A DNA stretch of 49,563 bases from NCBI GenBank assembly GCA_030430205.1, contig JAUIGE010000044.1, positions 1 through 49,563 on the forward strand, given 5' to 3'. Below, in pieces: positions 22,034 through 41,585 of this stretch. The stretch's first letter is position 1. Every line of letters starts with the position of its first letter. The notes below the pieces were generated by a model, which worked only from the letters and a program-made list of their open reading frames with translations, was not told the DNA's origin and did no database searches. The translations under genes and the position numbers were made by a program. This stretch comes from Bacteroidia bacterium. GTDB taxonomy: Bacteria > Bacteroidota > Bacteroidia > J057.

Positions 22034-22801
22034 TTACTCAGCCTGGCCCAAATCCTCAAGGACTTTTTTGCTGGCATCCTGCTTATAGTGCCTGTCCTGC
22101 GCGGAAATGTGGCGAAAAGCCTGAATGGCCTCCTGGCTATTTCCTTGCTTTAACCAACTCAATGCCTCATACCATTCGGCTTGTTGTTGATGTTGATCGG
22201 CCCGATCAAAGAGGGTAAATGCCCGCGCATATTCGCCTAATTCAAGGGCCGTTATTCCTTCATAAAGGGCTATTTCGGAGCGATCTGAAGGCGTAAAAGT
22301 ATTTTTGTCCAGGGCTTCAAATTGCCTTTTTGCATCTTGGAAATCTTTTTTGTCAAAACTCAAATAAGCTTCCCGCAGCAAACTATCCTGATCGGTGGAT
22401 AAAAAGCCAGGAACCTCTGGCGCTTCATAATTTGCTGTAAACAATTCCTCTGGTGTAGCAGAAGGTGAGGAAGGGATAAGCAAAAAAACCGTGGCGACAA
22501 GAATCACAAAGACCGCCGCCATCATCATCAAACGCCTGCGGCGCATAAACCTCTGTTGCGCGACTTGCAGTTGGGCGTGACGGTGGGTCATTTCCTCCCT
22601 CTTGCTTTCAAAGTGCGCTTTCTCTTCCTGGTAACCGGCTTTGTAAATCAGCTCTTTACTTTTTAGAAAATGCCTGAAAGACTCCCTGAAAGTAGGGTCT
22701 TTCTGAAGTTGTTGTTCAAAATCCTTTATAGCTTTTGAGTCAAGTTGTTTGGATATATATTGTTCAAACAAAAGGAGCTGGTCTTGATTTTCTCCATTCA
22801 T
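22034..22801 (-). CDS. Putative anti-sigma factor: single-pass TPR protein (module A)
   Basis: 255 residues from ATG 22801, which overlaps the sigma gene's stop (ATGA), so it is translationally coupled to it. Residues 1-85 are helical and cytoplasmic (DQLLLFEQYISKQLDSKAI, resembling the first helices of Bacteroidota anti-sigma-like proteins); RRRR then LMMMAAVFVILVATVFLLIP at about 91-110 is a transmembrane helix, positive inside. The periplasmic part holds two or three TPRs (EAYLSFDKKDFQDAKRQFEAL, IALYEGITALELGEYARAFTLF, ALSWLKQGNSQEAIQAF). No zinc-binding anti-sigma HxxxCxxC motif is present. By position and topology it should bind the sigma factor, but this is inference. Confidence 0.75.
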   Translation of the reverse strand: MNGENQDQLLLFEQYISKQLDSKAIKDFEQQLQKDPTFRESFRHFLKSKELIYKAGYQEEKAHFESKREEMTHRHAQLQVAQQRFMRRRRLMMMAAVFVILVATVFLLIPSSPSATPEELFTANYEAPEVPGFLSTDQDSLLREAYLSFDKKDFQDAKRQFEALDKNTFTPSDRSEIALYEGITALELGEYARAFTLFDRADQHQQQAEWYEALSWLKQGNSQEAIQAFRHISAQDRHYKQDASKKVLEDLGQAE

Positions 22802-23376
22802 GATTTGCCTGTTTTTAGGTGTAGTATTTCTTTGAGCCGTTTGAGGCATCGATATTTCATATTTGCTACGGTGGAGGCTTTATTGTAGCCCATACGCTGG
22901 GCGACTTCCTCCTGGCTGTAGCCGTAATAGTCGATTTCCAGCAAAAGGCGCTTGCATTTTTCTCCCAACTCATCCATGGCTATTTGCAGCTTGTTCCATT
23001 TTTCTTGTTGTTCCATTTCTTCCAAAATACTTCTGACCGGGGAAGGCAGCTCATAATGATCGGCAATGTCTTCCTGCATAATAGAAGACGCATTTTTTCG
23101 AATATTATCTACACATCGGTTGCAAAAAGCCCGATATAGGTAGGCAGATAGCTTTGAATCGCCATCTAAGGCGCCTTTTTGAATCTGCCTACATACCTTG
23201 ATGATAGCGTCACTAAAGGCGTCATGCGCCTGGTCAAAGGAGAGCGAATAGCGTTTTACGCCTGCATAAATGAAGTCAAAATATTGTTCATAAAGCAGGC
23301 CTGAATAATGCTGTCTCAAGGCTCCTTCCTCTTTTATCCCCTGGATCAGCTCGGCTTCTGGAATATTTTTTTTCAA
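22798..23376 (-). CDS. ECF-type RNA polymerase sigma factor (module A)
   Basis: Sigma-70 family, ECF-like: region 2 around FDQAHDAFSDAIIKVCRQIQ, region 4 helix-turn-helix around DYYGYSQEEVAQRMGYNK then ASTVANMKYRCLKRLKE. No region 3. It directs RNA polymerase to a small regulon. The frame is open to ATG 23478, but its first 34 codons cover a terminator-like hairpin at 23441-23464 and do not look like sigma sequence, so a start near TTG 23376 (LKKNIPEAELIQ) is preferred; this is uncertain. It is followed by the TPR membrane protein with a 4-base overlap and is divergent to the T9SS-CTD/CHAT pair. Confidence 0.85.
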   Translation of the reverse strand: MKKNIPEAELIQGIKEEGALRQHYSGLLYEQYFDFIYAGVKRYSLSFDQAHDAFSDAIIKVCRQIQKGALDGDSKLSAYLYRAFCNRCVDNIRKNASSIMQEDIADHYELPSPVRSILEEMEQQEKWNKLQIAMDELGEKCKRLLLEIDYYGYSQEEVAQRMGYNKASTVANMKYRCLKRLKEILHLKTGKS

Positions 23377-23435
23377 TTTTTTGAGTTTTGCTGGTGATGT
23401 GTAACCGAAGTTAGGCGTCTTAATGATGAACACAA

Positions 23436-23467
23436 AAAGAAAAGCCTCCGTGCAGGGAGGCTTTAAA
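23436..23467 (-). terminator. Intrinsic terminator-like hairpin in the sigma gene leader
   Basis: Minus strand: AAAGCCTCC (23464-23456), 6-base loop, GGAGGCTTT (23449-23441), then TCTTTTTGTG. A 9-bp perfect stem with a U-rich tail in the sigma gene's own direction. The upstream neighbour is divergent, so the only transcript it can stop is the sigma leader: attenuation or a short RNA. Confidence 0.6.
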
Positions 23468-23548
23468 GTGTTCTTCATGTGAATGTTGGTCCACGATGAT
23501 TTGCACTAAGTGTAAAGTTATTGTTTAATTTGATAAAAATGGAATCAC

Positions 23549-24421
23549 ATGAAAAGTAAAATGAATGGTCATTTGGGATTAAGTATTCTCTTGTTGTTCT
23601 TGTTTTGCATGCCTCAAAGGTACTTTGGGCAACACGATGATCGAATAATCGTGATTGTGGGAGATGGAATGAGAGGACCAGGTCTGGGAGGTTATGCCAG
23701 CCTTGAAGGAGAGCCTCTCTGTTGGATGGCAAACGAAGGAAATGAAACGGTTTCATTTATTGATCGGCTTGAGGTAAGGTATTCTGAATTGGAGGGCGAA
23801 AGTTTCGATGTGCTTGAAATCCAGTACACGATCAAGGACAAATCAGGTAATTTTGTTGAAATCACTTCACCCGAAGGTACTTCTAATCCATTTGTCCTGT
23901 CGTATGATATTAGTAGTGATAACGAAGGGCAAGAGCCTCCGCCATTTACGGTTACTGAGCTTTGGAACGGGGATATATTTGAAACAGATATTTTCTATTC
24001 AACAGAATTGCCAGAAGATTTCCCCATAGAAGATGAGTTGGATTTTAGGGTGAAAGTAAGGGTGAAAGAGGATGGATCTGCCTGGGAGCTGGTTCATATT
24101 ATAGAATTTACCTCCAACATCTGCGCTCACAGCGAAGGTTCATTTAGGAAGGCTTCTATCCCATCAGATGCCATGGGATTGCATGTCAGCCCTAATCCTT
24201 TCGATTCCCAGCTTCAGTTGAAGTGGGAAAAAGAAGCTCCTTTGATTTCTGAAATCTCCATCCTGGATGCTCAGGGCAGAACTGTTCTGCAAGAATCATG
24301 GACCCCAGTCCAAGGGAATAGCCTAAACCTGGATACTGAAAAGCTGGCAAAAGGCATGTATGTGTTGCAAATCAAGTCAGGAAAGCAAACAGTCAACCAT
24401 AAGATCATTAAAGCGAATTAA
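23549..24421 (+). CDS. Secreted protein with T9SS C-terminal sorting domain (module A)
   Basis: 290 residues. Signal peptide ends near YFGQ (about residue 28). The middle, rich in acidic residues and beta strands, is unassigned. Residues about 213-290 form a type A T9SS CTD: LHVSPNPFDSQLQLKW, ISILDAQGRTVLQ, LAKGMYVLQIKSGKQTVNHK then IIKAN, so the protein should cross the outer membrane by the type IX system and be surface-attached or released. The stop TAA overlaps the ATG of the CHAT gene (TAATG at 24419-24423), a tight translational coupling repeated in module B. First gene divergent from the sigma gene. Confidence 0.85.
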   Translation: MKSKMNGHLGLSILLLFLFCMPQRYFGQHDDRIIVIVGDGMRGPGLGGYASLEGEPLCWMANEGNETVSFIDRLEVRYSELEGESFDVLEIQYTIKDKSGNFVEITSPEGTSNPFVLSYDISSDNEGQEPPPFTVTELWNGDIFETDIFYSTELPEDFPIEDELDFRVKVRVKEDGSAWELVHIIEFTSNICAHSEGSFRKASIPSDAMGLHVSPNPFDSQLQLKWEKEAPLISEISILDAQGRTVLQESWTPVQGNSLNLDTEKLAKGMYVLQIKSGKQTVNHKIIKAN

Positions 24422-27219
24422 TGATGAGATGTGCAGGCATCAAAAAGATGCGTTTGCTTAGTTTTATCTTCCTGCTGAGTCTGGCATTTTGCCAGGCTCA
24501 GCAAGGAGATTCCTTGGCATTAAACCGCTTATCGGCGAAATCACTAGAACTTTATCATTCAAGTAACCCTGATTCTGCCTGGCTGCTTTTTCCCGCATTG
24601 TTGGATGAAATTAAACACAACCAGTTTTGGCCATTATATCGAAAATCCTGTGCATGGGCCAGTACAGTTTTAGGTAAAAATTCGGATCTTTTTTCAATTG
24701 TTGATGATGCCGAAAGGCTAAGAGATAGCCTGCAAAAATATCGTGGGAGTGACCGAAGTCATTATTCCAGTTTGAATGGTAATCTTGGTTTACTTTTTCA
24801 GCGGGTGGGGGATTTCGGTAAGATGCAAAAAGCTTTTGAAGAGGTAATAGCCATTAATGAGGGTATTGTTCATCAATACTTATCCCTGGATTACCAAAAT
24901 TTAGCTTCCTCCTATCGCTTTCAGGGAGATTGGATTGCCTCGTTGACCTACAATCAAAAAGCACTAGCTATTTGGGAAATGGAAGGCAAGCCATCTACTT
25001 CCAGCTGGATCCCAATAACTTATGCTAATGCGGGAAGGGTTGCGGCATTTTTGAAAAGATGGCGTTTAGCTATTTCATATTATCTGGCGACCTTTAGTAT
25101 GAATAATACCAAGTGGCGGGTTCATGCTGCCCATGGCCTTTCAAATGCTTACCTTGAAATGGGCAAAATTGATAGCGCAACCTATTATTTGGAACAGGCA
25201 AAAACGATTGTCCATGAAGGGAAAGTACTTTATATACCTGTTTCCTATGAGCTTGAGTCTAAAATTTTGATGGCACAAGGGCGGTATCCTGAAGCTCTTG
25301 CTGCAGCTCAAAAATCACAGCAGTTACGTCTCTTGCCAGGCGAAAGCCCAAGACCTGACGACCTGGCTAGAGGAGAAGAACTTATTGCAAAAGCTTTTTT
25401 TGCGTTAGGAGAATGGGATAGTGTGCACCTAGCTCTTAATCGTGGGTTAACATATTTTGTGGATCGATTCAGCAAGGAAGCCTTCCCGTTTAATCTCATT
25501 TTTAAGCAAGATGCTTTGCCCCTCCTAAAACTTGAAATTGAAGTGTTAAGGGCACAAAAAAAATTAGGTGAAGCACTTCAATTATGTGAATCTGCTACAC
25601 AGATAGTTCAAGAGTTAAGGAGATCACGAATAGGCGAGTCTAATAAGCTTATCCTGAATGAATATGCCAGGTGGATCACAGAATTGGCTTTTATAACCAT
25701 TTGGGATTTGAATCAAAACGAGTCTGACGATAAAATCATATCTGGCCATTATCAAAGGGCCTGGGCAATCTCAGAATCCTATCATGGAGCTATATTGGTT
25801 GATGAGTTAACAGAAAATGAACAATTCTATAGAACCAATTTACCTGATAGCCTTCGTCAGGAAGAACAGAATAAAAGATGGAAAATCAGCTATTTTAAAA
25901 CGAAACTGAACAATGCGATTAGAAAAGGATCCAGGGAGGAAGCCTTGCAAAGTATTCGCAATGATTTGTTTAAAGAGGAAGAAGACTACAGGAAACTATA
26001 CAATTTTTTGGGAGAAAACTGGCCTGTGTTCCAATCGGATGCGAAGTATTATGATTTCGCGCTTCAAGCTGTTTCTTTTGATAAGGTTATACCAGGCCAG
26101 ATGGTTATCAGCTATTTTGAAGGCCATGAGGATCTGTTCATCCTAACATACATGGAGGGAAAAAGTCATTTGTACAAAAAAGATATTCCTTCCTCTTATA
26201 AATCCTGGAGTGAAAATCTTGAGAAAGAAATACAAGGAAAAGACTTAAGTCCCGAATCTTGCAAAAATTATAGCTTTTTGGCAGAAAAGCTATCTCAATT
26301 TTTGTTGAGTGGCATATTGGATTCTGATGAAATCGAGACACTTTTGATTATTGCAGATGGTTCTTTAAATAAAATTCCATTTGAGGCGCTGCTTTCAATA
26401 GAGGACCAGGATCAGGAAGCAATGGATAAATCGGACTTTCGAAGTCTTCCCTATTTGTTTACACAGTACAAAATTCGATATGTTCATGCGCTAAATTTAT
26501 TAGAATTTAGCTATCCGCTAAAACCAGCTAAGGAGGGATTAGCCATTTTTGCCCCAACTTACAGCGGTATCTTAAGCCTACCCCAAAATGCTCAGGTAGC
26601 AGATGGGTTAATGGCGAATGTAAAAGCTGAAAATTTTTCTGACGCCTTTTATTCTTCTAAAATTTCTTTTAGCAGCTTGGTAAGCCAATACGCCATGCTA
26701 CATCTCGCCCTCCACGGCGAGAGTGATACCTCCAACGCATCTCAGTCCTACCTCCAATTCCCATTGGAGTCTGGAGAAGACAATCGGTTGTACACCCACG
26801 AGATTTACAATCTCCGCCTGCCTGCCAACCTGATCAGCCTGGCTTCCTGCGAAGTAGGAGATGGCCGCCTGGAGGCAGGTGAGGGCCTGATGAGTCTGGG
26901 AAGAGCCTTTCGATATGCTGGCGCAGCTACGGTGCTTTCCAGCCGCTGGAAGGCGGATGCGCGCGTGACAGGGCGCATCTTCCCGCTATTTTATGGATAT
27001 CTCGCAGAAGGAAAAGCTTCTGATGAGGCCTTTGCGCTGGCGCGCAGGGATTTCCTGAAAGACGCTCCGCCCTCTTTAGCTCATCCTTTTTATTGGGCGA
27101 ATTTTGCGCATTGGGGCGAGGCTTATACTCACCGCTCATCCAGGAATTATTACTGGATCTTCGGATTAGTCATTATTGGCCTTGCTTTCTTTTCAATAAG
27201 GTATGGGGTTCAAAGATAA
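24421..27219 (+). CDS. CHAT-TPR protease-like protein, membrane anchored (module A)
   Basis: 932 residues. Signal peptide from MRLLSFIFLLSLAFCQAQ; TPRs over about 90-400 (e.g. YQNLASSYRFQGDWIASLTY, HGLSNAYLEMGKIDSATYYL); a helical linker; CHAT peptidase domain from about 600 to 890 with the catalytic dyad His765 (LHLALHGE) and Cys810 (LASCEVGDG), then EGLMSLGRAFRYAGAATVLS. A final transmembrane helix (YYWIFGLVIIGLAFFSI) with tail RYGVQR. CHAT domains are caspase/separase-clan cysteine peptidases. With a cleaved signal peptide and a C-terminal anchor, TPR and CHAT should be in the periplasm. Substrate unknown; the coupled CTD protein and the nearby TPR anti-sigma protein are candidates. Confidence 0.9.
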   Translation: MMRCAGIKKMRLLSFIFLLSLAFCQAQQGDSLALNRLSAKSLELYHSSNPDSAWLLFPALLDEIKHNQFWPLYRKSCAWASTVLGKNSDLFSIVDDAERLRDSLQKYRGSDRSHYSSLNGNLGLLFQRVGDFGKMQKAFEEVIAINEGIVHQYLSLDYQNLASSYRFQGDWIASLTYNQKALAIWEMEGKPSTSSWIPITYANAGRVAAFLKRWRLAISYYLATFSMNNTKWRVHAAHGLSNAYLEMGKIDSATYYLEQAKTIVHEGKVLYIPVSYELESKILMAQGRYPEALAAAQKSQQLRLLPGESPRPDDLARGEELIAKAFFALGEWDSVHLALNRGLTYFVDRFSKEAFPFNLIFKQDALPLLKLEIEVLRAQKKLGEALQLCESATQIVQELRRSRIGESNKLILNEYARWITELAFITIWDLNQNESDDKIISGHYQRAWAISESYHGAILVDELTENEQFYRTNLPDSLRQEEQNKRWKISYFKTKLNNAIRKGSREEALQSIRNDLFKEEEDYRKLYNFLGENWPVFQSDAKYYDFALQAVSFDKVIPGQMVISYFEGHEDLFILTYMEGKSHLYKKDIPSSYKSWSENLEKEIQGKDLSPESCKNYSFLAEKLSQFLLSGILDSDEIETLLIIADGSLNKIPFEALLSIEDQDQEAMDKSDFRSLPYLFTQYKIRYVHALNLLEFSYPLKPAKEGLAIFAPTYSGILSLPQNAQVADGLMANVKAENFSDAFYSSKISFSSLVSQYAMLHLALHGESDTSNASQSYLQFPLESGEDNRLYTHEIYNLRLPANLISLASCEVGDGRLEAGEGLMSLGRAFRYAGAATVLSSRWKADARVTGRIFPLFYGYLAEGKASDEAFALARRDFLKDAPPSLAHPFYWANFAHWGEAYTHRSSRNYYWIFGLVIIGLAFFSIRYGVQR

Positions 27220-27405
27220 TTTTGGTTTTTCTAAAAAAATCAATTTTGCTGGTGATGAGATTTTTTTTCATGCGTCTTATGTTTAGTTGTGATTCAATTT
27301 CATGCAAAACATTAAGATGCATGATCTTTTGATTCCATAACATCCTGAAGCGGAAGCCGAAAAGCTAGAATAGAGTAGGCATAGTTTAACCCATATCATT
27401 TCATC

Positions 27406-29193
27406 ATGATGTCTAAACCGAAAGGGCTCACCGCCCTCATAATATTGCTATGTCTTGTTTTTTCCGCCAACGGGCAAAACCTTGTCAAAAATCCTAGTTT
27501 TGAAACAGGAGGAGCACTGAGCTCACCAGGTCCTACACCGATTGAGCAAGCAGACTTTTGGGACCATGCATGTACAGACGCTCCGCCCTGGGATGGAGAA
27601 AATGCTCCTGCATTGCTAGAAAATGGAGCCGGAAATGGCAATGGGTTGCCAGCGGGTCTGCTACCTCATCATGGAGATAGAGTAGCAACGCTGGAGCATA
27701 ACTATTATAAAGAAGAATTTGAATGGGAACTCATCAAATTTGACAAAATGAGAGGGAAATTATGGTCACCTTTACAAGCAGGGAATTATAATTTAAATGT
27801 ATGGGCTGCCGGCGAAAATATTTCCTATCCTATGGTATTCGTGGATGTCAAAATTTCCTTGCAGAATAGTAACGACCCTTGTAATGATGAATTTATCGTT
27901 TCGGATCCTCCAGGTTTGGCTGATTTTGAAGAGTTTCCAGGAGATTTAACCTGGTACAAACTCAATTTCAACTTTACCATTGATGCACAGGATGCCAATA
28001 AATACGATAGGATTTTTTTCAGAAGAGGAAGTTTCCCTGTATTTACTTCTCACCAAAAAATTTATATTGATGACCTGGTGATGACAGAGAGTGTGCCTGA
28101 TATTTCTTCTGTCATTGGCTCTGTTTGTTCAAAACAGGCAAAGGTTTCCATTCCTGAAGGTATTCAGGAGTACAGAATCAAAATCAAAAACCTGGCAGGA
28201 AATGTTACCTATTGTACCATTGATGAAAATGATTATCCCAGCCCAGCCACATTTTACCCTTATACGTTTTGCAATATTATCTGTGGCGCTGGAAATTTTT
28301 ACCAGTTTGAGATTTTGTATAAGGACTATACAGGTGCTATGCATTCCGAGGCGGTATATACGGAATTGTTGTGTTCCCCCAATGTAGCTGCCTTAGCGAA
28401 TCCCTCTGTTGTATGTCCCGGGGATTTGGTTACTTATACCGCCTTTGACCCAGCGACCGGAAATCCAGAACCGGGCGTAACCTATACCTGGTATGATGAC
28501 AATGGTCCATTAGGAACTGGAGCAAGCTTAGGACCCCTGAGTTACACGCCAGGAAATGGGGTCATAGGCGTTGTGGCTAGTAATTCAAATGATTGTGAAG
28601 CAAAAGCTGTAGCCGATTTGGCCATGGATGATGATTGTGAAGGCGTAGGATTCTGCTTTGCAGATTTTAATTGGACTTCAAATGAGACTGCCCATGGGAA
28701 GTGTGAAGTAGCTTTTACAGATGCAAGCACCGCAGCTTCCAATATCATCAGTTGGATTTGGGATTTTGGAGATCAGACAGGCTGGAATGGCCAAAACCCT
28801 CCCGTTCATACTTATCCAGACCTGAATGGATATATCGTCTGCCTCACCATCACCACAGCAGATGGCTGTACAAGTCAAAGGTGCAGGCCTGCAGGCTGTA
28901 TTCGAAGTGGTGGAAGACAAGCTATGCCTGGGCAAAATGGAGAAGCTGTCTTTACATTTTATCCAAACCCGGTTAGCTCATTTTTACATATATCTCTTGC
29001 TCAAAATTTGGAAGAAAAAGGGACAGTCAATATCTATAATATGCACGGGCAGTTGCTACTATCTGGCCCGTTATCCCAAACTCATGGAGTAGAAAAAATA
29101 GATGTTTCGGCCTTGCCTTCAGGGATGTATACTGTCGAAATCAGATCAGAGCAAGGACGATTGGCGGTAGAAAAAATAGTGATTGCTCATTAA
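27406..29193 (+). CDS. Secreted surface protein: jelly-roll, PKD, T9SS CTD
   Basis: 595 residues, signal peptide ending SANGQ (about 24). The mature N-terminus NLVKNPSFETGG starts a carbohydrate-binding-like jelly-roll domain ending at KIYIDDLVM, common in Bacteroidota surface proteins. A middle region has CSPNVAALANPSVVCPGDLV with conserved cysteines, shared with the next gene. A PKD domain follows (ISWIWDFGDQTGWNGQNPPV then HTYPDLNG). The C-terminus FTFYPNPVSSFLHISL ... ALPSGMYTVEIRSEQGR is a type A T9SS sorting domain. Probably cell-surface or matrix adhesion. Second transcription unit of module A, about 190 bases after the CHAT gene. Confidence 0.88.
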   Translation: MMSKPKGLTALIILLCLVFSANGQNLVKNPSFETGGALSSPGPTPIEQADFWDHACTDAPPWDGENAPALLENGAGNGNGLPAGLLPHHGDRVATLEHNYYKEEFEWELIKFDKMRGKLWSPLQAGNYNLNVWAAGENISYPMVFVDVKISLQNSNDPCNDEFIVSDPPGLADFEEFPGDLTWYKLNFNFTIDAQDANKYDRIFFRRGSFPVFTSHQKIYIDDLVMTESVPDISSVIGSVCSKQAKVSIPEGIQEYRIKIKNLAGNVTYCTIDENDYPSPATFYPYTFCNIICGAGNFYQFEILYKDYTGAMHSEAVYTELLCSPNVAALANPSVVCPGDLVTYTAFDPATGNPEPGVTYTWYDDNGPLGTGASLGPLSYTPGNGVIGVVASNSNDCEAKAVADLAMDDDCEGVGFCFADFNWTSNETAHGKCEVAFTDASTAASNIISWIWDFGDQTGWNGQNPPVHTYPDLNGYIVCLTITTADGCTSQRCRPAGCIRSGGRQAMPGQNGEAVFTFYPNPVSSFLHISLAQNLEEKGTVNIYNMHGQLLLSGPLSQTHGVEKIDVSALPSGMYTVEIRSEQGRLAVEKIVIAH

Positions 29194-33238: not shown

Positions 33239-33274
33239 ATAATTTAGCCAAAAAGATTTTTTTCTTTTTTTTCG

Positions 33275-33304
33275 GTCACGTTTGGGCCACATGAGAAGTT
33301 TTAA
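33275..33304 (+). promoter_or_regulatory. Candidate ECF promoter of the divergent surface protein gene
   Basis: GTCACGTTT at 33275-33283, an inverted match to the box at 33238-33230 with 36 bases between them. After 17 bases the sequence is TTAAGG rather than TATA, so this one is weaker. It would transcribe the gene at 33400. Confidence 0.3.
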
Positions 33305-33399
33305 GGATGAAGGAAAAAAGAGCGCTTCAAATTATCCTCCTTCTGGAATTTACCTTTTCTCTTAATTTTTTTTCTCAAATAACCATAACAAAAAGTGGC

Positions 33400-36300
33400 A
33401 TGAAAAATCTATGGACCTATAAAAGCATCTTTCTGCTTTTCTTATGTTTTGCCTTCCAGACCCATCTACGGGCAAGCCATATAGTGGGCGGAAATATTAC
33501 ATACCAATGTTTGGGCGGCAATCAGTATCAGGTTACTGCGAGACTCCTGAGAGATTGTAATGGCGCGAATTTATTTGCAAACATTAACCTCTCAGCCTTA
33601 AACCAGACCTCCGGTACAATTTCCAACCACAATTTAAACAGGATCAGTATCGATACCCTTCCTCTCAACAATGCTGCTAACTGCGCACAATCTGGTTTTT
33701 GTGTAGAGGAGCATGTTTACCAGGGGATCATCAACCTGCCTAACAACCTCGATGGGTATGATCTGCGGTTTTCGAGTTGTTGTAGAAATGGTGGGGTAAT
33801 AAATACAAATGCGGGCGGTTTTCGCATGCATACCAATATGCCTCCTCCCCAGCTTTGCAACAGTTCTCCCACTTTCAATCCACAGTTTACGACCATATTT
33901 TGCGTAAATCAATCAGGCTGTGTGGACTTGTCCGCTACGGATCCCGATGGTGACCAATTGAATTACCGCTTTGTTGCGCCACTGGACCAGGGTGGAAACC
34001 CGGTTGCTTATAATCCTCCTTTTACGCTGGCAAATTTCATGAATGGCAATCCCGCCATGACCATTGACCCGCTTACAGGCCAGGCCTGTGTGACACCCAC
34101 ACAATTGGGCCTATTTGTAGCGACGGTCGAGATAGATGAAGTAAGGGCCGGGCAGGTAATAGGTCAGACAAGGAGAGATATTCAGATTTTGGTGGTGAAT
34201 TGTCCCCCGCCGCCTGTGGCTTGTTTCTCCCTGCCGGATACGATTTGTATCAATTCAAGCATCGTTCCGAATTTGTCCTGCATGCCTGGCAATATCACCA
34301 GTTACCGCTGGGTAATCCATGAGATGAACCCTCCGGGGCCCTGGATTCCACTTTATTATTCGCCTTATTTGCCCGGTCCTGTTCCTGCCACAAACCTTAA
34401 AAATCTCTGGAATGGCTATCAGGCAGGCAAAAGTTATGGGATTTCGATTGATGTGTTTAACGCCTGTGGAAATCACTCTACCTACAGAGAGGTTTATATT
34501 GCACCCCGGCCGCCCCAATTTTCCTTTTCCGCAGGATATTTGGGTTGTGAAGATGACTGCCTGACGCTGGTATGCGACCCCAATTCAGATCCGGCATTGA
34601 CCGAAGGGGCTCCTTTTACCATGAGCTGGAACAATGGTTCGACCAATCCTACCCGTACCGTTTGCCCCGATGTGCCGACCACCTATTATGCTTTTGTCAC
34701 CAACAGATGGGGTTGCACGAGCACCTGGTCCTACTTTGTTGACAAAGATACCTGCTGTCTGGAGCCCTGTTTTGAGCTGCCGGATACCGCCTGTGTGAAC
34801 GGGCCTATTTTCCCAGACCTATCATGTATGCGTCAAAATATTGACTCCTATCGCTGGGCAATCCATGAGATGGATCCTCCCAACCCCTGGATTCCCAAAC
34901 ACTATACGCCTTACCTGTCCGGGCCTGTGGTTTCAGTGGATTTCACTAGCCTGTGGAGTGGCTTTGAGGCTGGAAAGACCTATGGCATTTCCATAGATGT
35001 ATTCAAAACCTGTGGCGTGAATGCGACCATTTACCGCGAAGTCTACATTGTCCCCCAGCCTACTCAGCAAATGATCGTTCAGTCATTTCCATTAAGTTGT
35101 GAGGACAATTGTCTCACCATAGGAGATGATATCCTCCTTAATTTTGGACTCGCCACCAATGACCCGGGCGCGCCCTATACGGTGGAATGGGATGATGCTT
35201 CGACCAGCTACCAGCGTGTGGTTTGTCCTACCGAGCCCACTCTCTATACAGCTATCATCCGTAACAGATGGGGCTGTGAAGCAAGTTGGTCTTATTTTGT
35301 TGACAAAGACACCTGCTGCCTCGATCCCTGCTTTTCGCTGCCTGATACCGTCTGTGAAGGTGATCCGATTTTCCCTGACCTTTCCTGCATGCAGCAGGAC
35401 ATAGACTCCTATCGCTGGGCGATCCATGAGATGGACCCTCCTAATCCCTGGATTCCCAAGCATTATACACCCTACCTGTCAGGGCCAGTAGCTTCTGTAG
35501 ATTTCACCACCTTATGGAATGGTTTTGAAGCGGGGAAAAGCTATGGCATTTCTATAGATGTTTTCAAAAACTGCGGTGCCAACGCCAGCACCTACCGTGA
35601 AGTCTATATCGCAGCACGACCTACTCAGCAGCTGGTCATCAATGCTTACCCATTGAGCTGTGAAGAAAATTGCTTTAACCTGGGGGATGATCTGCTGAAC
35701 AACTTCGGTCTGGCGACCCATGATCCTGGCGCACCTTTTACGGTGGAGTGGGATGATGCTTCGACCAGCTTCCAGCGCGTGGTTTGTCCTACCGAGCCGA
35801 CGCTTTATACAGCCATCATTCGCAACAGATGGGGCTGCGAGGCAAGCTGGTCTTATTATGTAGACAAAGACACTTGTTGCCTTGATCCCTGCTTCTCGCT
35901 GCCTGACACCGTCTGTGAAGGTGATCCGATCATCCCAGATCTCTCCTGCATGCAGCAGGACATAGACTCCTATCGCTGGGCGATCCATGAGATGGATCCT
36001 CCGGGCCCATGGATTCCCAAACACTATACACCCTACTTGCCTGGTCCCGTGGCAGCTGTAGATTTCACCACGCTGTGGAATGGTTTTGAGGCGGGAAAAA
36101 GCTATGGCATCTCAATAGATGTATTCAAAAACTGTGGAGCCAATGCGACCATTTACCACGAAGTCTATATCCAGCCGATCTTAACAGAAATAAGGGAAGT
36201 TTGTGTAAACATAGAAGGAAAAGTCTTGCTGGAGCCTTGCTCAGGAGCCAGTGGCCCCTTTGACTATGTCATCAACGGCAATGCCATTTCTTCAAGCAAT

Positions 36301-36993
36301 ACTTCTATGGAAGTGACTTATTCTCCGGGCGATAGCTATGAGGTAATCTCTTATGACGCGCATGGATGCCCCTGCACAGTCCAGTATGTCGTTATTCCCC
36401 CGCCGCCACCCGTATCTGTATTTGCTATTTGGTGTGCCGGACAAATGCAATTTGACTTTAGCAGCCTGATAGATCCTGCCTGCCTCGCAGCTGTCGACTC
36501 TTTCACCCTGATTAATACCTATAACAATAACCACATCCCCTTGTTTGTCAACGATCCTTCCGGAGGCTGGGATTTCGTAACGGCCGAAGGCCTGGGAGAT
36601 TTGATTTGCCTGCAATTTGTCAGCTATAAAGATGGCTGTATTGTCTGTATCGTCAATATTTCGATGGTATTTACCAATGGAAATTGCGAAAACCAGCCCG
36701 AAATCTGGTGTACACCATCCAAGCTTGCAAAGCCTTTTTCCGGCATCTTGGAACCCAAGATCGTACCGAATCCTACAGTCGCACGATTCCAGATTCATGC
36801 AGGGAAGGCGGAAGCTGAAATCAATTTTGACAAAGTTACCATTACAACTCCAAATGGTGCCACCATCCAAAGCTATACCCATGTATTGTCCAGCAGAGAT
36901 TATGATTTGTCTATGTTGGCAGATGGAATATACTTCGTTCATGTCTTTCATCAAGGAAAGCTGTATTCGATGAAATTAGTTCTTATGCATTGA
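33400..36993 (+). CDS. Very large secreted T9SS protein with four ~187-aa tandem repeats
   Basis: 1197 residues from ATG 33400, chosen because MKNLWTYKSIFLLFLCFAFQ is a signal peptide; the frame is open to 33307. The mature start SHIVGGNITYQCLGGNQYQV is a domain typical of Bacteroidota gliding/surface proteins. Then come four copies of a cysteine-rich module, starting at 34222, 34768, 35329 and 35890 (periods 546, 561, 561 bases), each with CF-LPDT-C, PDLSCM, SYRWAIHEMDPPNPWIP and YTPYLSGPV. The last is partial. The C-terminus IVPNPTVARFQIHAG ... LADGIYFVHVFHQGKLY is a T9SS CTD. Likely a surface adhesin. First gene divergent from the module B sigma gene; it ends in a strong terminator. Confidence 0.9.
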   Translation: MKNLWTYKSIFLLFLCFAFQTHLRASHIVGGNITYQCLGGNQYQVTARLLRDCNGANLFANINLSALNQTSGTISNHNLNRISIDTLPLNNAANCAQSGFCVEEHVYQGIINLPNNLDGYDLRFSSCCRNGGVINTNAGGFRMHTNMPPPQLCNSSPTFNPQFTTIFCVNQSGCVDLSATDPDGDQLNYRFVAPLDQGGNPVAYNPPFTLANFMNGNPAMTIDPLTGQACVTPTQLGLFVATVEIDEVRAGQVIGQTRRDIQILVVNCPPPPVACFSLPDTICINSSIVPNLSCMPGNITSYRWVIHEMNPPGPWIPLYYSPYLPGPVPATNLKNLWNGYQAGKSYGISIDVFNACGNHSTYREVYIAPRPPQFSFSAGYLGCEDDCLTLVCDPNSDPALTEGAPFTMSWNNGSTNPTRTVCPDVPTTYYAFVTNRWGCTSTWSYFVDKDTCCLEPCFELPDTACVNGPIFPDLSCMRQNIDSYRWAIHEMDPPNPWIPKHYTPYLSGPVVSVDFTSLWSGFEAGKTYGISIDVFKTCGVNATIYREVYIVPQPTQQMIVQSFPLSCEDNCLTIGDDILLNFGLATNDPGAPYTVEWDDASTSYQRVVCPTEPTLYTAIIRNRWGCEASWSYFVDKDTCCLDPCFSLPDTVCEGDPIFPDLSCMQQDIDSYRWAIHEMDPPNPWIPKHYTPYLSGPVASVDFTTLWNGFEAGKSYGISIDVFKNCGANASTYREVYIAARPTQQLVINAYPLSCEENCFNLGDDLLNNFGLATHDPGAPFTVEWDDASTSFQRVVCPTEPTLYTAIIRNRWGCEASWSYYVDKDTCCLDPCFSLPDTVCEGDPIIPDLSCMQQDIDSYRWAIHEMDPPGPWIPKHYTPYLPGPVAAVDFTTLWNGFEAGKSYGISIDVFKNCGANATIYHEVYIQPILTEIREVCVNIEGKVLLEPCSGASGPFDYVINGNAISSSNTSMEVTYSPGDSYEVISYDAHGCPCTVQYVVIPPPPPVSVFAIWCAGQMQFDFSSLIDPACLAAVDSFTLINTYNNNHIPLFVNDPSGGWDFVTAEGLGDLICLQFVSYKDGCIVCIVNISMVFTNGNCENQPEIWCTPSKLAKPFSGILEPKIVPNPTVARFQIHAGKAEAEINFDKVTITTPNGATIQSYTHVLSSRDYDLSMLADGIYFVHVFHQGKLYSMKLVLMH

Positions 36994-37106: not shown

Positions 37107-37283
37107 GCAGTGGGCAGTGGGCAGTGGGCAGTGGGAAGTTTGCAGTGGGCAGTGGGCAGTGTGGTTCTTGACTGCATACTGCAAACTGTAAACTGCAAAC
37201 TGTAAACTGCAAACTGTAAACTGCAAACTGCAAACTGTAAACTGCAAACTGCAAACTGCAAACTGTAAACTGCAAACTGATAA
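37107..37283 (+). repeat. Heptamer repeat element 2 (GCAGTGG arm / CTGCAAA arm)
   Basis: Left arm 37107-37162 in perfect 7-base register: four GCAGTGG, one GAAGTTT (the unit of element 1), two GCAGTGG, one GCAGTGT. Core GGTTCTTGACTGCATACTGC at 37163-37182. Right arm 37172-37283: sixteen units alternating CTGCAAA and CTGTAAA. GCAGT of each left unit can pair with ACTGC or ACTGT of a right unit, giving 5-bp helices separated by 2-by-2 internal loops. Long open frames across the array on the minus strand are repeat artefacts. Confidence 0.8.
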
Positions 37284-37302
37284 ACTATTAATGCATAAGG
37301 AC

Positions 37303-38796
37303 ATGGGAAAAAACAGACTATTTCTCCTGACGATTTTGTTATTCGGCTTGGGCTGGGACAGCGCCAGCGCCCAGGATACCCTGGAGGTGAGTAGCAATCA
37401 AAACGGATGGGTGCAGTACCATACCAAAACAGACAGCAATGCGCATGTTTTCACCCTGTATGGGGATGGAACCTTTGGCCAGCAGTATGATCCTGGCCAT
37501 AAATTCCCGCCACAGGCGGGGGGCTATATCACCGAAAGTTATTTCGTCAAAGCCTATGATACCAATTTGCCGCCGCCAAAGCGGGTCTTCACCGGAAGTG
37601 TAGGCTCTGGCAGCAGCCAAAGCAATCCCGTCATCAAGATGAGTGGACAGGCTGATCTCTACAGCAGCTGGGCCACAGCCTACGGCTATGAAAATTTCTT
37701 CATCATCGCTTTTAGCAATACAGACAGCAGCTCAGCTGTAAATGGCTGTATAGAATTGTATTACAATTCCAATGAAATCAGCCCCGATACCTCTGACATC
37801 CTGGTGTATAATAGCTGGGTGAAAAACAGGAACCTGATCCTGGATTCGGTGGGTAGTTTCAATCGAAAACTCAGCTGGGAGTTTACAGGACTTGACAAAG
37901 ACGAAGTTCGCTATGTATATGTGCCCGCTACCGTCCTTATCAGACCCGGAAAATCCCTCAGCCTGCGCACCACCTACAAGGTGAATTGTACGGGTAGCGG
38001 GAGCAGCCAAAACAGCTCCTTTCTCTCGCGGAGATTTCCGCATGACCCCAATTTTAAAATCGTCAACAGAAGTTGCCTCAAGCCCCATATGCCAGAGGAA
38101 AGCCTGGAATACACCATCGGTTTTTTCAATGATGGAAATGATTTTGCCCACCATGTATTCCTGATGGATACCCTCCCTCCTTTGCTGGATCCTAACAGTT
38201 TTGCCCTGCTGGACTATGAGTTCCAGCCCAACTGGAATCTTATCGGACACAAGCTCCAGCTCGATTTTATGGGGATTTTTCTCCCGGGAACCCATCAGAC
38301 CATTCCCGAAATGTATTCCTATGAAGATGCTTTTTCCTATGTCAAATTTAAGATTTGTACACAGCCTTTTCTCCCCAACCAAACGACAATTCTCAATACC
38401 GCAGCTATTACCTTTGATACACAGCCTGCTTTTATCACAGCGCCAGCGGTGGTCAGTACCTGGGATGAATGCACAGAATTTTTTCCCTGTAATACCGGCC
38501 TGCGCGGCAGCAGCCAGCCATTTTTCAGCCCTATGGAACCCGCCATCCTGATTTCTCCCAATCCTATAAGCGAAAAGCTCCTTTTGACCATTGATTTCCA
38601 TGCGGAGGTGGCTCCCGTTTTTGAATTGAATCTGCTGGATTTTTCGGGTAAAGTGCTGGAAAACTGGAAGCAAACGGCACCGCAGGGCGGCCTATACCAA
38701 AGGCATTTCTCCCTGCCAGAATTGCCCGCAGGCATGTACATCATGCAATTGAAATCAGCGCAGGGCTTGTACCATCAAAAATTTGTTAAGCTTTGA
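37303..38796 (+). CDS. Secreted protein with DUF7619-like domain and T9SS CTD (module B)
   Basis: 497 residues from ATG 37303 (MGKNRLFLLTILLFGLG, signal peptide ending SASAQ). The middle contains a bacterial Ig-like block with EYTIGFFNDGNDFAHHVFLM then DTLPPLLDPNSF, the DUF7619 (conserved repeat) signature of Bacteroidota surface proteins. The C-terminus ILISPNPISEKLLLTIDF ... LPAGMYIMQLKSAQGLY is a type A T9SS CTD. The TGA stop overlaps the TTG start of the following CHAT gene (TTGA at 38793-38796), matching the coupling in module A. It lies downstream of a candidate ECF promoter and the heptamer array. Confidence 0.87.
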   Translation: MGKNRLFLLTILLFGLGWDSASAQDTLEVSSNQNGWVQYHTKTDSNAHVFTLYGDGTFGQQYDPGHKFPPQAGGYITESYFVKAYDTNLPPPKRVFTGSVGSGSSQSNPVIKMSGQADLYSSWATAYGYENFFIIAFSNTDSSSAVNGCIELYYNSNEISPDTSDILVYNSWVKNRNLILDSVGSFNRKLSWEFTGLDKDEVRYVYVPATVLIRPGKSLSLRTTYKVNCTGSGSSQNSSFLSRRFPHDPNFKIVNRSCLKPHMPEESLEYTIGFFNDGNDFAHHVFLMDTLPPLLDPNSFALLDYEFQPNWNLIGHKLQLDFMGIFLPGTHQTIPEMYSYEDAFSYVKFKICTQPFLPNQTTILNTAAITFDTQPAFITAPAVVSTWDECTEFFPCNTGLRGSSQPFFSPMEPAILISPNPISEKLLLTIDFHAEVAPVFELNLLDFSGKVLENWKQTAPQGGLYQRHFSLPELPAGMYIMQLKSAQGLYHQKFVKL

Positions 38797-41585
38797 GGTG
38801 CGGTGGAAAAAAAGCTTTTGTAAACGGCCTTTTGGGGCTGTTGATGCTTTTTTTGCCATCAGGCAAACTCTTTTCCCAGCAGGCAGAGGACAGCCTGGAG
38901 GCTGCATTTTTGGAAAAATACAGAGGTATTTTTTACGAAGGCTATTATACAGAGGATTACGAATCCTCTATCAGCCAGCTACAGCAAGGCCTGGGCGAAG
39001 CGCCCAAAGACAAGCCTGCTATTCAGGCGAAGATCCGCTACTTCCTGGCTTTCAGCCAGGAGAAGACAGGCGATATCGTGGGCTCGCAGGCCCAGTATGA
39101 AGCTGCGGCGGCAGCCTTTGAAGCTGCCCATGACAGCAGCTGGCTGGGGCCTGTCTATGGCAACCTGGCCGCAGGCTATACCCAGCAGGGAGATTATGCA
39201 AAAGCCGTTTTGTACCTGAAAAAAGGCATTTCTCTCGCAAAAGAGCTGGCTGACAGCACCACCCTTTGGAAAAACCACAAGCTGCTGGGGCAGGCTTTTT
39301 TCTACCAGGGCGACTTGCAAAAGGCGCTCCAGCAGTTTGAGGAGGCGCGCCGCCTCTATGATCCGCAGGATGGCACCTTTGCCTTTTTTGAGGCAAAGCT
39401 TGCCCTGGCAAAAGACCTATTGCCGGAGGCAATAAGGGCTGCGGAGACTTCTCTCCGCCAGGCAGGGCAGGACAAAGCTGCGGCAGCAGAGGCAAAAAAA
39501 CTGCTCGGAGAAATTTACCTTCAGGCAGCTCAGCCGCTGAAAGCGCTCCAAAGCTTTGAATCCCTTTTGCCCTTTTACCAAAAAGCCCCCAACCAACGCG
39601 AACTCGGCAAATTGTACATCCTGATCGCCGCAGCTCAGCAGGAGCTTGCCCGATATGATGCAGCCCTGAAAAGCTACCAAAAGGCCTTAAAGACCTTTTT
39701 GCCATCCTTTCAGGAAAATGACCCTTCCCAAAACCCTGATCCCTCCTTTGTGAGCAGGGAGATCTGGCTGATGGAAATCATGCGGGGCAAAGGGCAGTGT
39801 TTTTTGAAAAAATTTGAAGAAAACCACCGCTTGTCAGATTTGCATCTGGCTGCATACCAGCTGGAAGATGCGGTGAGATGCATAGAAGAAATCAAATTGG
39901 CTTTTGACGAATCGGCCTCCATGATTTTGCTGGGGAGCTATACCCATGATTTTTATGAGGATCTCATCGAAGTGAAATACAGGCTCGCGGCCCTGGAAAA
40001 TAAGCCAGCCTTGCTGGAAGAGGCTTTCCTGATAGCTCAAAAGGCAAATGCCTTTGTGCTGCGCGAATATGTCAGTGAGCAGCAGGCGCTGCAGCTGGCA
40101 GGCGTATCTGCCGATACGATGGCTTTGCTCAGTCGCCATCGGGCGACGACCAACCGCCTCCTGCGTCAGCTGGAACAGGCTCCCTCTGGAAAGATTGATT
40201 CCCTGAATCAGCTTCTTTTCCAGGAAAAACAACAGCTTTTTTCCCTCAAAAAAAACCTGGAAAAAGCCTATCCGCTCTATGCTGCTTTGAGAAATGAGCT
40301 GGCCGTGGCTGGCCTAAACCAGCTTCAGCAGGTTCTGGATAGCAGCCAATTGCTGATCAAATATTTTGTAGGGAAAAAAAGGCTGTATATTTTTTCGATT
40401 GCTGAAGCGCATTTTCAGCTTGACACGCTTCCTATCTCCAGGGATTTTTTCCTGCAGCTCTATCGATATCGCCGGGCGATCAGCGAACTGGATTTTGTGC
40501 GGGATTCCGCGCAGGTGGCTGAGCAGCAGTATCTTCATGCTGCGCATGAATTGTATCGGCTTCTTTTGGAAAAGCCACTCACCTGGCCGGGTTCTCAGGG
40601 GATTCGAAGGCTGACCATCGTGGCAGATGATGTGCTGCACAGCATCCCTTTTCAGGCGCTCCAGCTCAGGCCGGGCACATCCTGGACGAAAGCCGAAAAT
40701 ATGCTGATTTCTCAGTATGCCGTCAGTTACAGCTATTTTTGCCATATGCTGTTGGATGAAACTTCAGCGGAAGAATCGCAGGGTTCTTTTGTCTCTTTTG
40801 GGCTGGAGTTTGACGATTTTACCCTGAAATACCTGCAGAGCCTCAGCAAAGATTCCATCAAAAACCAGCTTATCAAAGATAACCTCCGCTCAGGCAGTCT
40901 TTCCAAGCTGCCTTTTTCAGATGATGAAGCCCGGGCCCTTGCCCGGATGATGCGCGGCACCTCCTGGCTCAATGAGCAGGCCACCAAAGCCAATTTTGTT
41001 TCCCAAAGTCAAGAGGCCCGCCTGCTGCATCTGGCGACCCACTCTTTGCTCGACACCCAACATCCTTTACAGTCCGCCCTGATTTTTACCAAAACCCGGG
41101 ATAGCCTGGATAATCTCCTTCGACTCGATGAAGTTTACAGCATGAAACTGCAAGCTGATATGATCGTCCTCAGCGCCTGCAACACTGCCTGGGGGCAGCA
41201 GCAAAAAGGGGAAGGCATCAACAGCCTGGCGCGTGCTTTTCATTTCGCCGGTGTGCCCAGCGTGACGGCTACCCTCTGGAGCATCTCCGACCAGAGTTCC
41301 CAAAAACTGATGGAGCTGTATTACAGCTTTCTGAAAGCAGGAGACCCCAAAGACATTGCCCTGCAAAAAGCACAGCTGGAATACCTGAAAAATGACAAAT
41401 TGAGCAGCCCGGCTTTTCGCTTGCCGGTCTATTGGGCCGCCTGGGTGAGTATGGGGGAGAATGGGGCGGTATTTGAGGTGCCTCTTTCTTTTTGGGAAAA
41501 AAATAAGGTAGGCTTGATTTTAGGATTTTTGCTTATCCTAATTGCTTCCGGCCTACTTGCATGGAGGAGACACGCCACCCAATAA
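38793..41585 (+). CDS. CHAT-TPR protease-like protein, membrane anchored (module B)
   Basis: 930 residues from a TTG start overlapping the preceding stop; no ATG gives the signal peptide (FVNGLLGLLMLFLPSGKLFS, cleaved before QQAE). TPRs follow at about 60-300 (YGNLAAGYTQQGDYAKAVLY, HKLLGQAFFYQGDLQKALQQ). The CHAT domain runs over about 580-890 with the dyad His750 (LHLATHS) and Cys796 (LSACNTAWG), plus GEGINSLARAFHFAGVPSVT. A final transmembrane helix (VGLILGFLLILIASGLLAW) is followed by RRHATQ. Predicted periplasmic peptidase tethered to the inner membrane. The last 53 bases overlap the 3' end of the opposite CHAT gene. Confidence 0.9.
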   Translation: MRCGGKKAFVNGLLGLLMLFLPSGKLFSQQAEDSLEAAFLEKYRGIFYEGYYTEDYESSISQLQQGLGEAPKDKPAIQAKIRYFLAFSQEKTGDIVGSQAQYEAAAAAFEAAHDSSWLGPVYGNLAAGYTQQGDYAKAVLYLKKGISLAKELADSTTLWKNHKLLGQAFFYQGDLQKALQQFEEARRLYDPQDGTFAFFEAKLALAKDLLPEAIRAAETSLRQAGQDKAAAAEAKKLLGEIYLQAAQPLKALQSFESLLPFYQKAPNQRELGKLYILIAAAQQELARYDAALKSYQKALKTFLPSFQENDPSQNPDPSFVSREIWLMEIMRGKGQCFLKKFEENHRLSDLHLAAYQLEDAVRCIEEIKLAFDESASMILLGSYTHDFYEDLIEVKYRLAALENKPALLEEAFLIAQKANAFVLREYVSEQQALQLAGVSADTMALLSRHRATTNRLLRQLEQAPSGKIDSLNQLLFQEKQQLFSLKKNLEKAYPLYAALRNELAVAGLNQLQQVLDSSQLLIKYFVGKKRLYIFSIAEAHFQLDTLPISRDFFLQLYRYRRAISELDFVRDSAQVAEQQYLHAAHELYRLLLEKPLTWPGSQGIRRLTIVADDVLHSIPFQALQLRPGTSWTKAENMLISQYAVSYSYFCHMLLDETSAEESQGSFVSFGLEFDDFTLKYLQSLSKDSIKNQLIKDNLRSGSLSKLPFSDDEARALARMMRGTSWLNEQATKANFVSQSQEARLLHLATHSLLDTQHPLQSALIFTKTRDSLDNLLRLDEVYSMKLQADMIVLSACNTAWGQQQKGEGINSLARAFHFAGVPSVTATLWSISDQSSQKLMELYYSFLKAGDPKDIALQKAQLEYLKNDKLSSPAFRLPVYWAAWVSMGENGAVFEVPLSFWEKNKVGLILGFLLILIASGLLAWRRHATQ

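Follow-up and report, generated by a model that had tools for sequence, protein, structure and literature searches.

Recurrent sets of ECF sigma factor, single-pass TPR protein and TPR-CHAT protein genes in Bacteroidota and their possible role in envelope signalling

A 49,563-nt contig of a Bacteroidia bacterium (JAUIGE010000044.1 of assembly GCA_030430205.1; this whole stretch is called the window below) carries two modules, A and B, each with genes for an extracytoplasmic function (ECF) sigma factor, a single-pass tetratricopeptide repeat (TPR) membrane protein and a TPR-CHAT protein. We found that these three genes form a conserved core, which recurs in the same genome and in other Bacteroidota, and that genes of this TPR family lie near CHAT genes far more often than expected from CHAT gene density. 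We read the modules as a probable family of parallel envelope-to-transcription signalling units in Bacteroidota.

In module A, the TPR gene (22034-22849, minus strand) and the sigma gene (22798-23478, minus strand) stand opposite the gene of a 290-aa protein with a type IX secretion system C-terminal domain (T9SS-CTD; 23549-24421, plus strand), whose stop codon overlaps the start of the CHAT gene (24421-27219, plus strand). In module B, the TPR gene (31815-32513, minus strand) and a sigma gene of divergent sequence (32555-33292, minus strand) are followed on the plus strand by two further genes with T9SS-CTD matches (33307-36993 and 37291-38796), the second of which overlaps the start of the CHAT gene (38793-41585, plus strand). 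The first-pass annotation of this DNA had described both modules with sigma, single-pass TPR, T9SS-CTD and CHAT-TPR genes, and every gene that it named was found in its place in the open reading frame (ORF) list of the window.

Association of CHAT genes with sigma/TPR pairs

The window's own genome (7.24 Mb) contains 29 CHAT matches and 62 sigma70-ECF matches, 44 of the latter above the cut-off. Neighbourhoods of the CHAT genes and of the other above-cut-off sigma genes were collected and yielded ten sets of sigma, TPR and CHAT genes; locus L015, with an ECF sigma gene on the CHAT strand and another membrane protein, was left out of this count. The TPR profile was built from 14 proteins of this genome (ten from the sets and four encoded beside other sigma genes) and re-found the same 14 at more than 168 bits, the next match reaching 73. 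Ten of the 14 genes have a CHAT gene within 10 kb, a count that is not independent, since the profile was built largely from CHAT neighbours. Two candidates were rejected along the way: a GNAT/TPR/AraC protein (15025-17313), taken in by the first TPR profile, was dropped, and a supposed CHAT protein in L021 (5580-8675) proved to contain TPR only and stayed in one CHAT alignment, outside all module counts. Genome G001, of the same genus, held 18 sets, which were picked by TPR-CHAT proximity and all of which include a sigma gene. TPR and CHAT genes also occurred together in other genomes of the same family (uncounted).

Named genomes were scanned with an alignment of five CHAT proteins, a 13-row alignment being too divergent, and the best 80 of 548 loci were assessed with partner profiles built from the own genome alone. 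Within 10 kb of these 80 CHAT genes, an ECF sigma gene was present in 53, a TPR-family gene in 51 and both in 47; among the 27 loci flanked by 9.5 kb or more on each side, 21 had both partners. Distances were below 3 kb for 53 of 62 sigma matches and 49 of 55 TPR matches, and the nearest partner and CHAT occupied opposite strands in 46/53 (sigma) and 47/51 (TPR) cases. Sets were found in Marinifilum, Labilibaculum, Ancylomarina, Gaoshiqia and many metagenome-assembled genomes. Because the loci were ranked by similarity to sigma-linked CHAT, these counts favour linked CHAT genes; without four loci that apparently come from G001 (L076, L077, L098 and L135), both partners were present in 46/76 loci overall and in 20/23 full-flank loci.

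The ranking bias was avoided in a sample of 117 other genomes drawn evenly over the phylum, with thresholds of E up to 1e-15 for the TPR family, E up to 1e-25 for CHAT and 10 kb for distance. The results revealed that 26 of 37 TPR-family matches lay within 10 kb of a CHAT match, compared with 0.53 expected from CHAT density. By genome, 21 had both TPR and CHAT matches, 4 TPR only, 32 CHAT only and 60 neither (Fisher p 1.1e-5). All these counts are lower bounds, because scoring was limited to the best candidates per genome, at most 22 in each and 18 in the own genome. With the own genome included, CHAT genes were present in 54 of the 118 sampled genomes of the phylum. The association above chance on which the first-pass annotation had staked its proposal is thus seen in the named loci and in the phylum sample alike.

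Gene order varied more than the two window modules suggest. All ten own-genome sets have the sigma and TPR genes on the strand opposite to CHAT, eight of them divergent and two convergent, and the divergent layout is common both there and in G001. Marinifilum and its relatives have the order CHAT> <TPR<sigma, and some Bacteroidales loci have <TPR CHAT> <sigma. Of the 26 TPR-CHAT pairs in the phylum sample, 16 have their two genes on opposite strands and 10 share a strand; of the latter, nine belong to one family outside the window's class, whose two mapped members (L183 and L184) read CHAT> ... sigma> TPR>. The divergent arrangement emphasised in the first-pass annotation is therefore real in modules A and B and is one of several layouts across genomes.

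Inheritance of the sets was compared between the own genome (G000) and G001. The nearest relatives of all three genes pointed to the same G001 counterpart for five of the ten own modules (A, L010, L011, L012 and L026), and two genes agreed for a further three. This matching between the two closest genomes worked better than a mirror-tree test. The numbers bear on the explanation that the genes are neighbours without shared function, thrown together in large recombining envelope-gene islands rich in paralogues. Such islands would fit the lack of agreement between sigma and CHAT trees within a genome and the many CHAT genes that lack a sigma/TPR pair; they would hardly produce the excess of TPR genes beside CHAT genes in the phylum sample, the preference for the opposite strand at mostly short distances among the best 80 of 548 named loci, or five modules that keep one counterpart for all three genes. 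We consider this explanation very improbable.

Sigma factor, CHAT protein and TPR membrane protein

Sigma A scored 73.2 bits against the NCBIfam model sigma70-ECF (cut-off 42.9) and passed the Pfam cut-off for Sigma70_r2, with region 4 below its cut-off, while sigma B was barely above the sigma70-ECF cut-off (43.0 vs 42.9 bits) and left Pfam region 2 unmatched. Judged by these family matches, both fit the ECF type with regions 2 and 4 only. The true start of sigma A is probably internal, because the family alignment begins at residue 33. The NCBIfam model of the type III-E CRISPR sigma factor also matched sigma A, with 28 bits (cut-off 100); as the general ECF models score far above it, no CRISPR link was read into this protein.

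A tree of 42 own-genome sigma factors was rooted at the midpoint (two of the 44, in L039 and L062, were missed by the ORF and profile step). Thirteen of the 14 TPR-linked sigma factors fell into one clade with a single other sigma factor (L059 7917-8495), so that mainly one ECF lineage travels with the TPR family; the sigma factor of the L012 module lies outside this clade. The TPR-linked label changed 3 times on the tree, compared with 11.9 on average and never fewer than 7 in 2000 shuffles. At five loci (L080, L085, L110, L111 and L116), a second, different ECF sigma gene and the gene of a 138-144-aa protein with two transmembrane (TM) segments adjoin the CHAT/sigma genes.

Against Pfam PF12770 (cut-off 24 bits), the CHAT proteins of modules A and B scored 133 and 192 bits, and a third CHAT protein of the window, described below, scored 202. 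The module A protein consists of TPR, a CHAT domain with a His-Cys dyad, and a C-terminal TM helix with a basic tail; the dyad is also present in module B. The collected loci encode 123 CHAT proteins of at least 750 residues, and 83 of these, termed linked here, have a sigma and a TPR gene within 10 kb (some double counts are included, as L098 and L162 overlap). The dyad was kept in all 83 linked and all 40 unlinked proteins. A C-terminal hydrophobic helix was found in 74/83 linked and 36/40 unlinked proteins, a basic C-terminal tail in 80/83 and 38/40, and an N-terminal hydrophobic stretch in 48/83 and 24/40, respectively. On the strength of these sequence matches, the CHAT proteins are members of a caspase-clan peptidase family with its dyad.

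The AlphaFold2 model of the module B CHAT protein (predicted local distance difference test score, pLDDT, 81.4; predicted template modelling score, pTM, 0.79) was compared with known structures. By VIA-align, Csx29/Craspase was the best match (Z 24.5-30.8 over about 440-570 residues, root-mean-square deviation (rmsd) 4-11), and alignments were also obtained with separases (Z 26.5, rmsd 3.3 over 323 residues) and with DdvA (Z 20.7, rmsd 10.9 over 576 residues; model residues 51-888). Foldseek placed DdvA first in a near tie with Craspase (1.6e-12 vs 1.9e-12), with low TM-scores. Searches of PDB sequences were made with CHAT-only and N-terminal-only profiles; whole-protein searches were filled by TPR proteins. 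The best sequence match of the CHAT profile was DdvA (8rot/8rw5, E 2.3e-4), with Csx29 next (E 0.02-0.03), and the CHAT region of DdvA aligns with the module CHAT proteins including His and Cys. In these two entries the protein is deposited as 'CHAT domain-containing protein' under the title 'transmembrane anti-sigma factor DdvA'. From the range of the structural alignment, the middle part of DdvA would be TPR-like.

The TPR proteins of modules A and B each have one hydrophobic helix by hydropathy, and their genes adjoin the sigma genes. In module A, an N-terminal domain (about residues 1-104) is followed by the TM helix, which comes after RRRR, and by a TPR domain (about 149-271) that is probably periplasmic; in module B, the TM helix lies near residue 59 with TPR after it. 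One hydrophobic helix past residue 30 was found in 77/77 nearest TPR proteins of linked CHATs, often with Arg or Lys just ahead of it (uncounted). From this helix position and basic flank, we expect the N-terminal domain in the cytoplasm and the TPR domain in the periplasm. By the positive-inside rule, the CHAT body would also lie in the periplasm, facing the TPR domain of the anti-sigma factor; hydropathy and basic flanks together suggest that the two bodies share that compartment. The AlphaFold2 model of the module A TPR protein (pLDDT 86.8, pTM 0.53) likewise has N-terminal helices that run into the membrane helix, with the TPR domain after it. Its PDB matches were TPR proteins (Foldseek best E 3e-3; VIA alignments with Z of about 12-13 over residues 149-271), and these fold searches, including those on the Csx30 question, were filled by TPR proteins and uninformative on the N-terminal domain.

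We probably see an anti-sigma factor in this protein. The whole module A TPR protein matched the NCBIfam model 'anti-sigma factor' at E 2e-4 (21 bits, cut-off 100). Weak matches of N-terminal segments to the same model were obtained for 14 of 34 (best 3e-7), to 'putative anti-sigmaE protein' for 10/34 and to Pfam zf-HC2 for 7/34 (best 1e-3); anti-sigma and zf-HC2 models are the families matched by the most segments in each library. In addition, a TPR homologue of genome G136 (L185), encoded between the sigma and CHAT genes, carries H-x3-C-x2-C, which we take to be a zinc anti-sigma signature. The best PDB matches of the N-terminal profile (protein A, a Nif11 domain protein, fatty acid synthase and HigB) were short and were set aside; DdvA (8rlz) was reached in this search only at E 2.3. 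Eight loci (L088, L104, L120, L124, L129, L140, L141 and L142, three of them labelled Prolixibacteraceae) encode longer TPR proteins of 448-512 aa, with about 125-258 extra residues at the N-terminus and a membrane helix around residue 283-339; in the three that were scanned, the extension gave no match below E 0.01.

Proposed mechanism, rival explanations and known systems

We give about an even chance to the complete proposal that CHAT senses at the envelope, cuts the anti-sigma factor and frees the sigma factor, that is, regulated proteolysis. A single-pass anti-sigma factor with a periplasmic TPR half would keep the ECF sigma factor at the inner membrane. A TPR-CHAT cysteine peptidase, anchored in the inner membrane with its body in the periplasm, would read an envelope signal via its TPR arm, dock on the TPR domain of the anti-sigma factor and cut either this domain or the juxtamembrane stalk. 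Further proteolysis, as after the DegS cut of RseA, would then free the sigma factor. What the computations show directly is the gene content, the conserved neighbourhood, the almost single sigma clade of the own genome, the intact dyad and the motif positions, while the anti-sigma-like N-terminus and the topology have indirect support; binding of sigma and TPR protein, sensing by CHAT, cleavage and the resulting regulation are what we infer. A more far-reaching version seems to us possible, if somewhat doubtful: that some Bacteroidota have many separate envelope-sensing channels, 18 sets having been found in one genome, and that in each of them a periplasmic, caspase-like CHAT peptidase of its own serves the ECF anti-sigma factor as its specific site-1 protease. 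This would be regulated proteolysis by the caspase fold outside CRISPR, wired to T9SS surface proteins in Saprospiraceae-like genomes, and the Craspase and DdvA arrangements could be derived from it or be its sisters.

The closest design precedent is DdvS/DdvA of Myxococcus xanthus, where, according to the excerpted account in PMC4374960, the ECF sigma factor DdvS is active once DdvA is inactivated and the signal is unknown. Like the modules, this system (PDB 8rot, 8rw5 and 8rlz) combines an ECF sigma factor, a transmembrane anti-sigma factor and a homologous CHAT region. Unlike them, it has the anti-sigma part, TM segment and CHAT in one polypeptide, whereas separate genes encode them in the window and in the mapped sets. 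The fusion is the strongest single hint that the products of the TPR and CHAT genes work together, and by analogy the modules may be seen as a split, multi-copy, two-gene version of a DdvA-type CHAT/anti-sigma system. One study is said to have linked DdvS/DdvA to CRISPR expression. The excerpts of PMC4374960 that describe DdvA mention no T9SS proteins, multiple copies or CHAT cleavage.

The same fusion can be read without any cut. CHAT could be a non-cutting co-sensor, the outer half of a split DdvA, which holds or releases the TPR domain of the anti-sigma factor by TPR-TPR contacts. A CHAT region and an anti-sigma part within one chain agree with this, as does the correlation of distances, which in the own genome is highest between TPR and CHAT (rho 0.41, p 0.03), although not in G001. 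The dyad retained by every linked CHAT protein, in contrast, argues for catalysis on some substrate, and we regard a purely non-cutting role as rather improbable.

Craspase, which the first-pass annotation had put forward as the precedent, stands as a parallel, but DdvA, with CHAT in the same chain, comes closer in design. As outlined in the portions of PMC10028731 available, the TPR-CHAT protein Csx29 cuts Csx30, the inhibitor of CASP-sigma, and so here too a TPR-CHAT peptidase is linked to an ECF sigma factor and to that factor's inhibitor; Csx29 is also the best fold match noted above, with Z up to 30.8. In the modules, however, CHAT is probably membrane-anchored in the periplasm and the inhibitor is a membrane TPR protein, and the sequence similarity to Csx29 is marginal at the E values given above. 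No Cas match was obtained among the scanned module proteins of the window by Pfam or PADLOC (7 proteins), other modules not having been searched for Cas, and the Rfam scan of the window returned no CRISPR family, which upholds the first-pass description of a non-CRISPR set in the window. PADLOC gave generic TPR matches alone for the window's module proteins.

Other known systems share single aspects of the modules. Genes for EACC2-caspases beside an ECF sigma gene and a TPR (DUF1822) gene are described among conflict and immunity systems in the parts of PMC8195603 at hand; here, too, a caspase-domain gene adjoins ECF sigma and TPR genes, but it has an EACC2-caspase constant part instead of CHAT, and the TPR family differs. 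In PorA-PorXY-SigP of Porphyromonas gingivalis, a small T9SS-CTD Ig-like protein, PorA, acts upstream of an ECF sigma factor; that route, unlike the modules, runs via a two-component system, and the extracts of PMC7712824 do not mention CHAT. The Calp system, so far as its available description goes, offers another parallel, in which the protease is of a different kind. Regulated proteolysis by DegS/RseP-RseA-RpoE of E. coli is summarised as cited background in PMC10028731. It resembles the proposed mechanism in its envelope signal, the cutting of a membrane anti-sigma factor and sigma release. DegS is presumably not a caspase-clan peptidase, and RseA presumably has no TPR domain. In the open-licence PubMed Central literature, outside which most subscription papers and all preprints fall, no Bacteroidota set of CHAT, sigma and TPR genes was found described and no function was found given for the CHAT genes of this phylum.

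The T9SS-CTD genes were assessed as a possible fourth component. The T9SS-CTD passed the cut-offs of both libraries in 23549-24421 and that of Pfam in 27406-29193 and 29258-31717, and was above the NCBIfam and below the Pfam cut-off in 33307-36993 and 37291-38796. With a counting model built from the own genome, which may miss some genes elsewhere, such a gene lay within 3 kb of 18/30 linked CHATs in the G000 and G001 stretches, of 12/53 linked CHATs at other loci and of 14/40 unlinked CHATs. The T9SS-CTD gene is thus an optional add-on and not part of the core, contrary to its place in the system as first annotated. At three own-genome loci (L017, L021 and L022), a T9SS-CTD gene lies directly upstream of CHAT with no sigma/TPR pair in the stretch.

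These genes bear on a further explanation, in which CHAT is an output: an envelope peptidase under sigma control whose task is the maturation or turnover of T9SS proteins from its own operon, with sigma and TPR switched by other means. We rate it as unlikely, though the most credible of the alternatives. It would account for the module A CHAT gene overlapping a T9SS-CTD gene behind a promoter-like motif, for the T9SS genes near linked CHATs in the two closest genomes and near unlinked ones, and for the CHAT/CTD pairs without a sigma gene. It fits less well with the few T9SS genes detected near linked CHATs elsewhere (the model's possible misses included), with the many genomes in which CHAT is convergent to the TPR and sigma genes and has no shared promoter upstream, and with DdvA, which joins CHAT to the anti-sigma part itself.

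The promoter-like motif came from an alignment of the sigma-CTD intergenic regions of module A and three related modules, TGGTGATG-N15/16-CGT[CG]TYA. CGTC is a usual -10 core of ECF promoters. In module A, TGGTGATG-N16-CGTCTTA (23392-23422, plus strand) stands 5' of the CTD-CHAT operon and falls within the annotated 5' end of sigma A, ahead of the part covered by the family alignment. A second copy with N15 (27250-27279, plus strand) lies 3' of the CHAT gene and 5' of the surface-protein genes, and G001 has this second site at the corresponding position. The form TGGTGATG-N14/17-CGTC thus occurs twice in the window (23392 and 27250), compared with 0.01 expected. Genome-wide, the strict motif has four sites, of which modules A and L026 account for three, and the reversed control has none. 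Of the 13 sites of a looser motif in G000 and G001, seven precede T9SS-CTD genes located in or close to modules A and L026 and the matching modules of G001 (C59:68412, about 9 kb beyond the CHAT gene, is one of the seven), and five of the other six are inside called ORFs. These positions suggest that sigma A may drive its own CHAT operon, as feedback, together with the nearby downstream surface-protein genes. No motif was found in module B on reading its sequence, no further search having been made, and a consensus promoter scan stayed near shuffle level and was not used.

Several results weigh against the proteolysis reading. On the side of the association, four of the 14 own-genome sigma/TPR pairs (C32, C14, C16:73882 and C69) have no CHAT gene nearby. 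Of the 88 CHAT matches in the phylum sample, just 28 are accompanied by a TPR match at up to 10 kb, so the module accounts for part of the CHAT genes and not all; 32 of the 53 CHAT genomes in this sample lack a TPR-family match, and 40 of the 123 long CHAT proteins in the collected loci are not linked to both partners. Since the unlinked proteins keep dyad, tail and helix as often as the linked ones, these traits do not single out an anti-sigma role, and DdvA came behind Csx29 and separase by VIA-align. The matches to anti-sigma models are weak throughout, and the N-terminal segment of the module A protein alone matched no family in Pfam or NCBIfam; the first-pass assignment of an anti-sigma function is to this extent tempered, with the weak family matches and the H-x3-C-x2-C homologue on its side. 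The looser motif is not enriched genome-wide (six sites vs four in controls for G000, seven vs five for G001), and motif-based regulation is a prediction because the motif was defined after the fact. For modules B and L024, the three genes do not agree on a G001 counterpart. Sigma-CHAT distances were uncorrelated (rho 0.06, p 0.39, n=10 in G000; 0.01, p 0.45, n=18 in G001) and TPR-CHAT distances weakly correlated, with 0.22 (p 0.10) in G001 beside the own-genome value given above; the sigma-TPR correlation was also weak (0.22, p 0.19 in G000; 0.34, p 0.015 in G001). Within-genome distances thus count against a closely coupled evolution of sigma and CHAT, although these distances are long, and the mirror-tree signal is perhaps weak because they are near saturation.

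Further features of the window and implications

Downstream of module A, two surface-protein genes follow the second motif copy: a T9SS-CTD protein with a PKD domain (27406-29193, plus strand), which is a candidate sigma A target, and a further T9SS-CTD protein (29258-31717, plus strand), whose relative in G001 lies downstream of the matching module (L182 6495-8276, E 1e-92). Between the motif and the first of them lies a DUF805b RNA (RF02914; 27347-27381, plus strand), one of four copies in the own genome. Two of these four, in modules A and L026 (9304-9339), stand after the CHAT gene at the start of a T9SS-CTD gene. The RNA was also seen in L181 (311-345 and 5025-5059), and one copy in G001 has a sigma A-type motif on one side and a T9SS-CTD gene on the other; perhaps this RNA is a leader of surface-protein genes. 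A GC-rich hairpin (23441-23464) was seen between sigma A and the CTD gene, with a similar stretch in the three related intergenic regions, and in L026 a group I intron match (18164-18726) overlaps the end of a tmRNA match.

In module B, the gene at 33307-36993 encodes a large protein with a weak T9SS-CTD and 561-nt internal repeats (34303-36147; spacing 546-561 nt, 3-4 copies, 67-79% alike), and the gene at 37291-38796 encodes a DUF7619 protein. Arrays of a 7-nt unit (about ACTGNNA) occur at 37157-37296, directly before the latter gene, and at 13891-13953. The first-pass inventory, whose genes are real, did not mention the third TPR-CHAT gene (41533-44604, minus strand), which is convergent with the module B CHAT gene (53-base overlap) and is without a sigma gene of its own within the window; an S8 peptidase gene (44769-46679) lies upstream of it on the same strand. 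A 300-nt stretch occurs twice in the window (16825-17124 and 20597-20896, 3772 bases apart) with 89% identity, and the window ends (1-103 and 49423-49525) are 99% identical over 103 bases, so that the contig may end in repeats.

If CHAT proteins of this kind do control anti-sigma factors, many orphan caspase-like peptidases would gain a job, that of passing envelope signals on to transcription, and the CHAT-sigma link known from Craspase would have a more general setting. Genomes with many such channels could then serve to study how sigma factors, anti-sigma factors and peptidases avoid cross-talk, and the circuit can be probed directly by way of its predicted target motif. For the cell, the repeated sets could allow separate outside signals to be turned into separate gene programmes.

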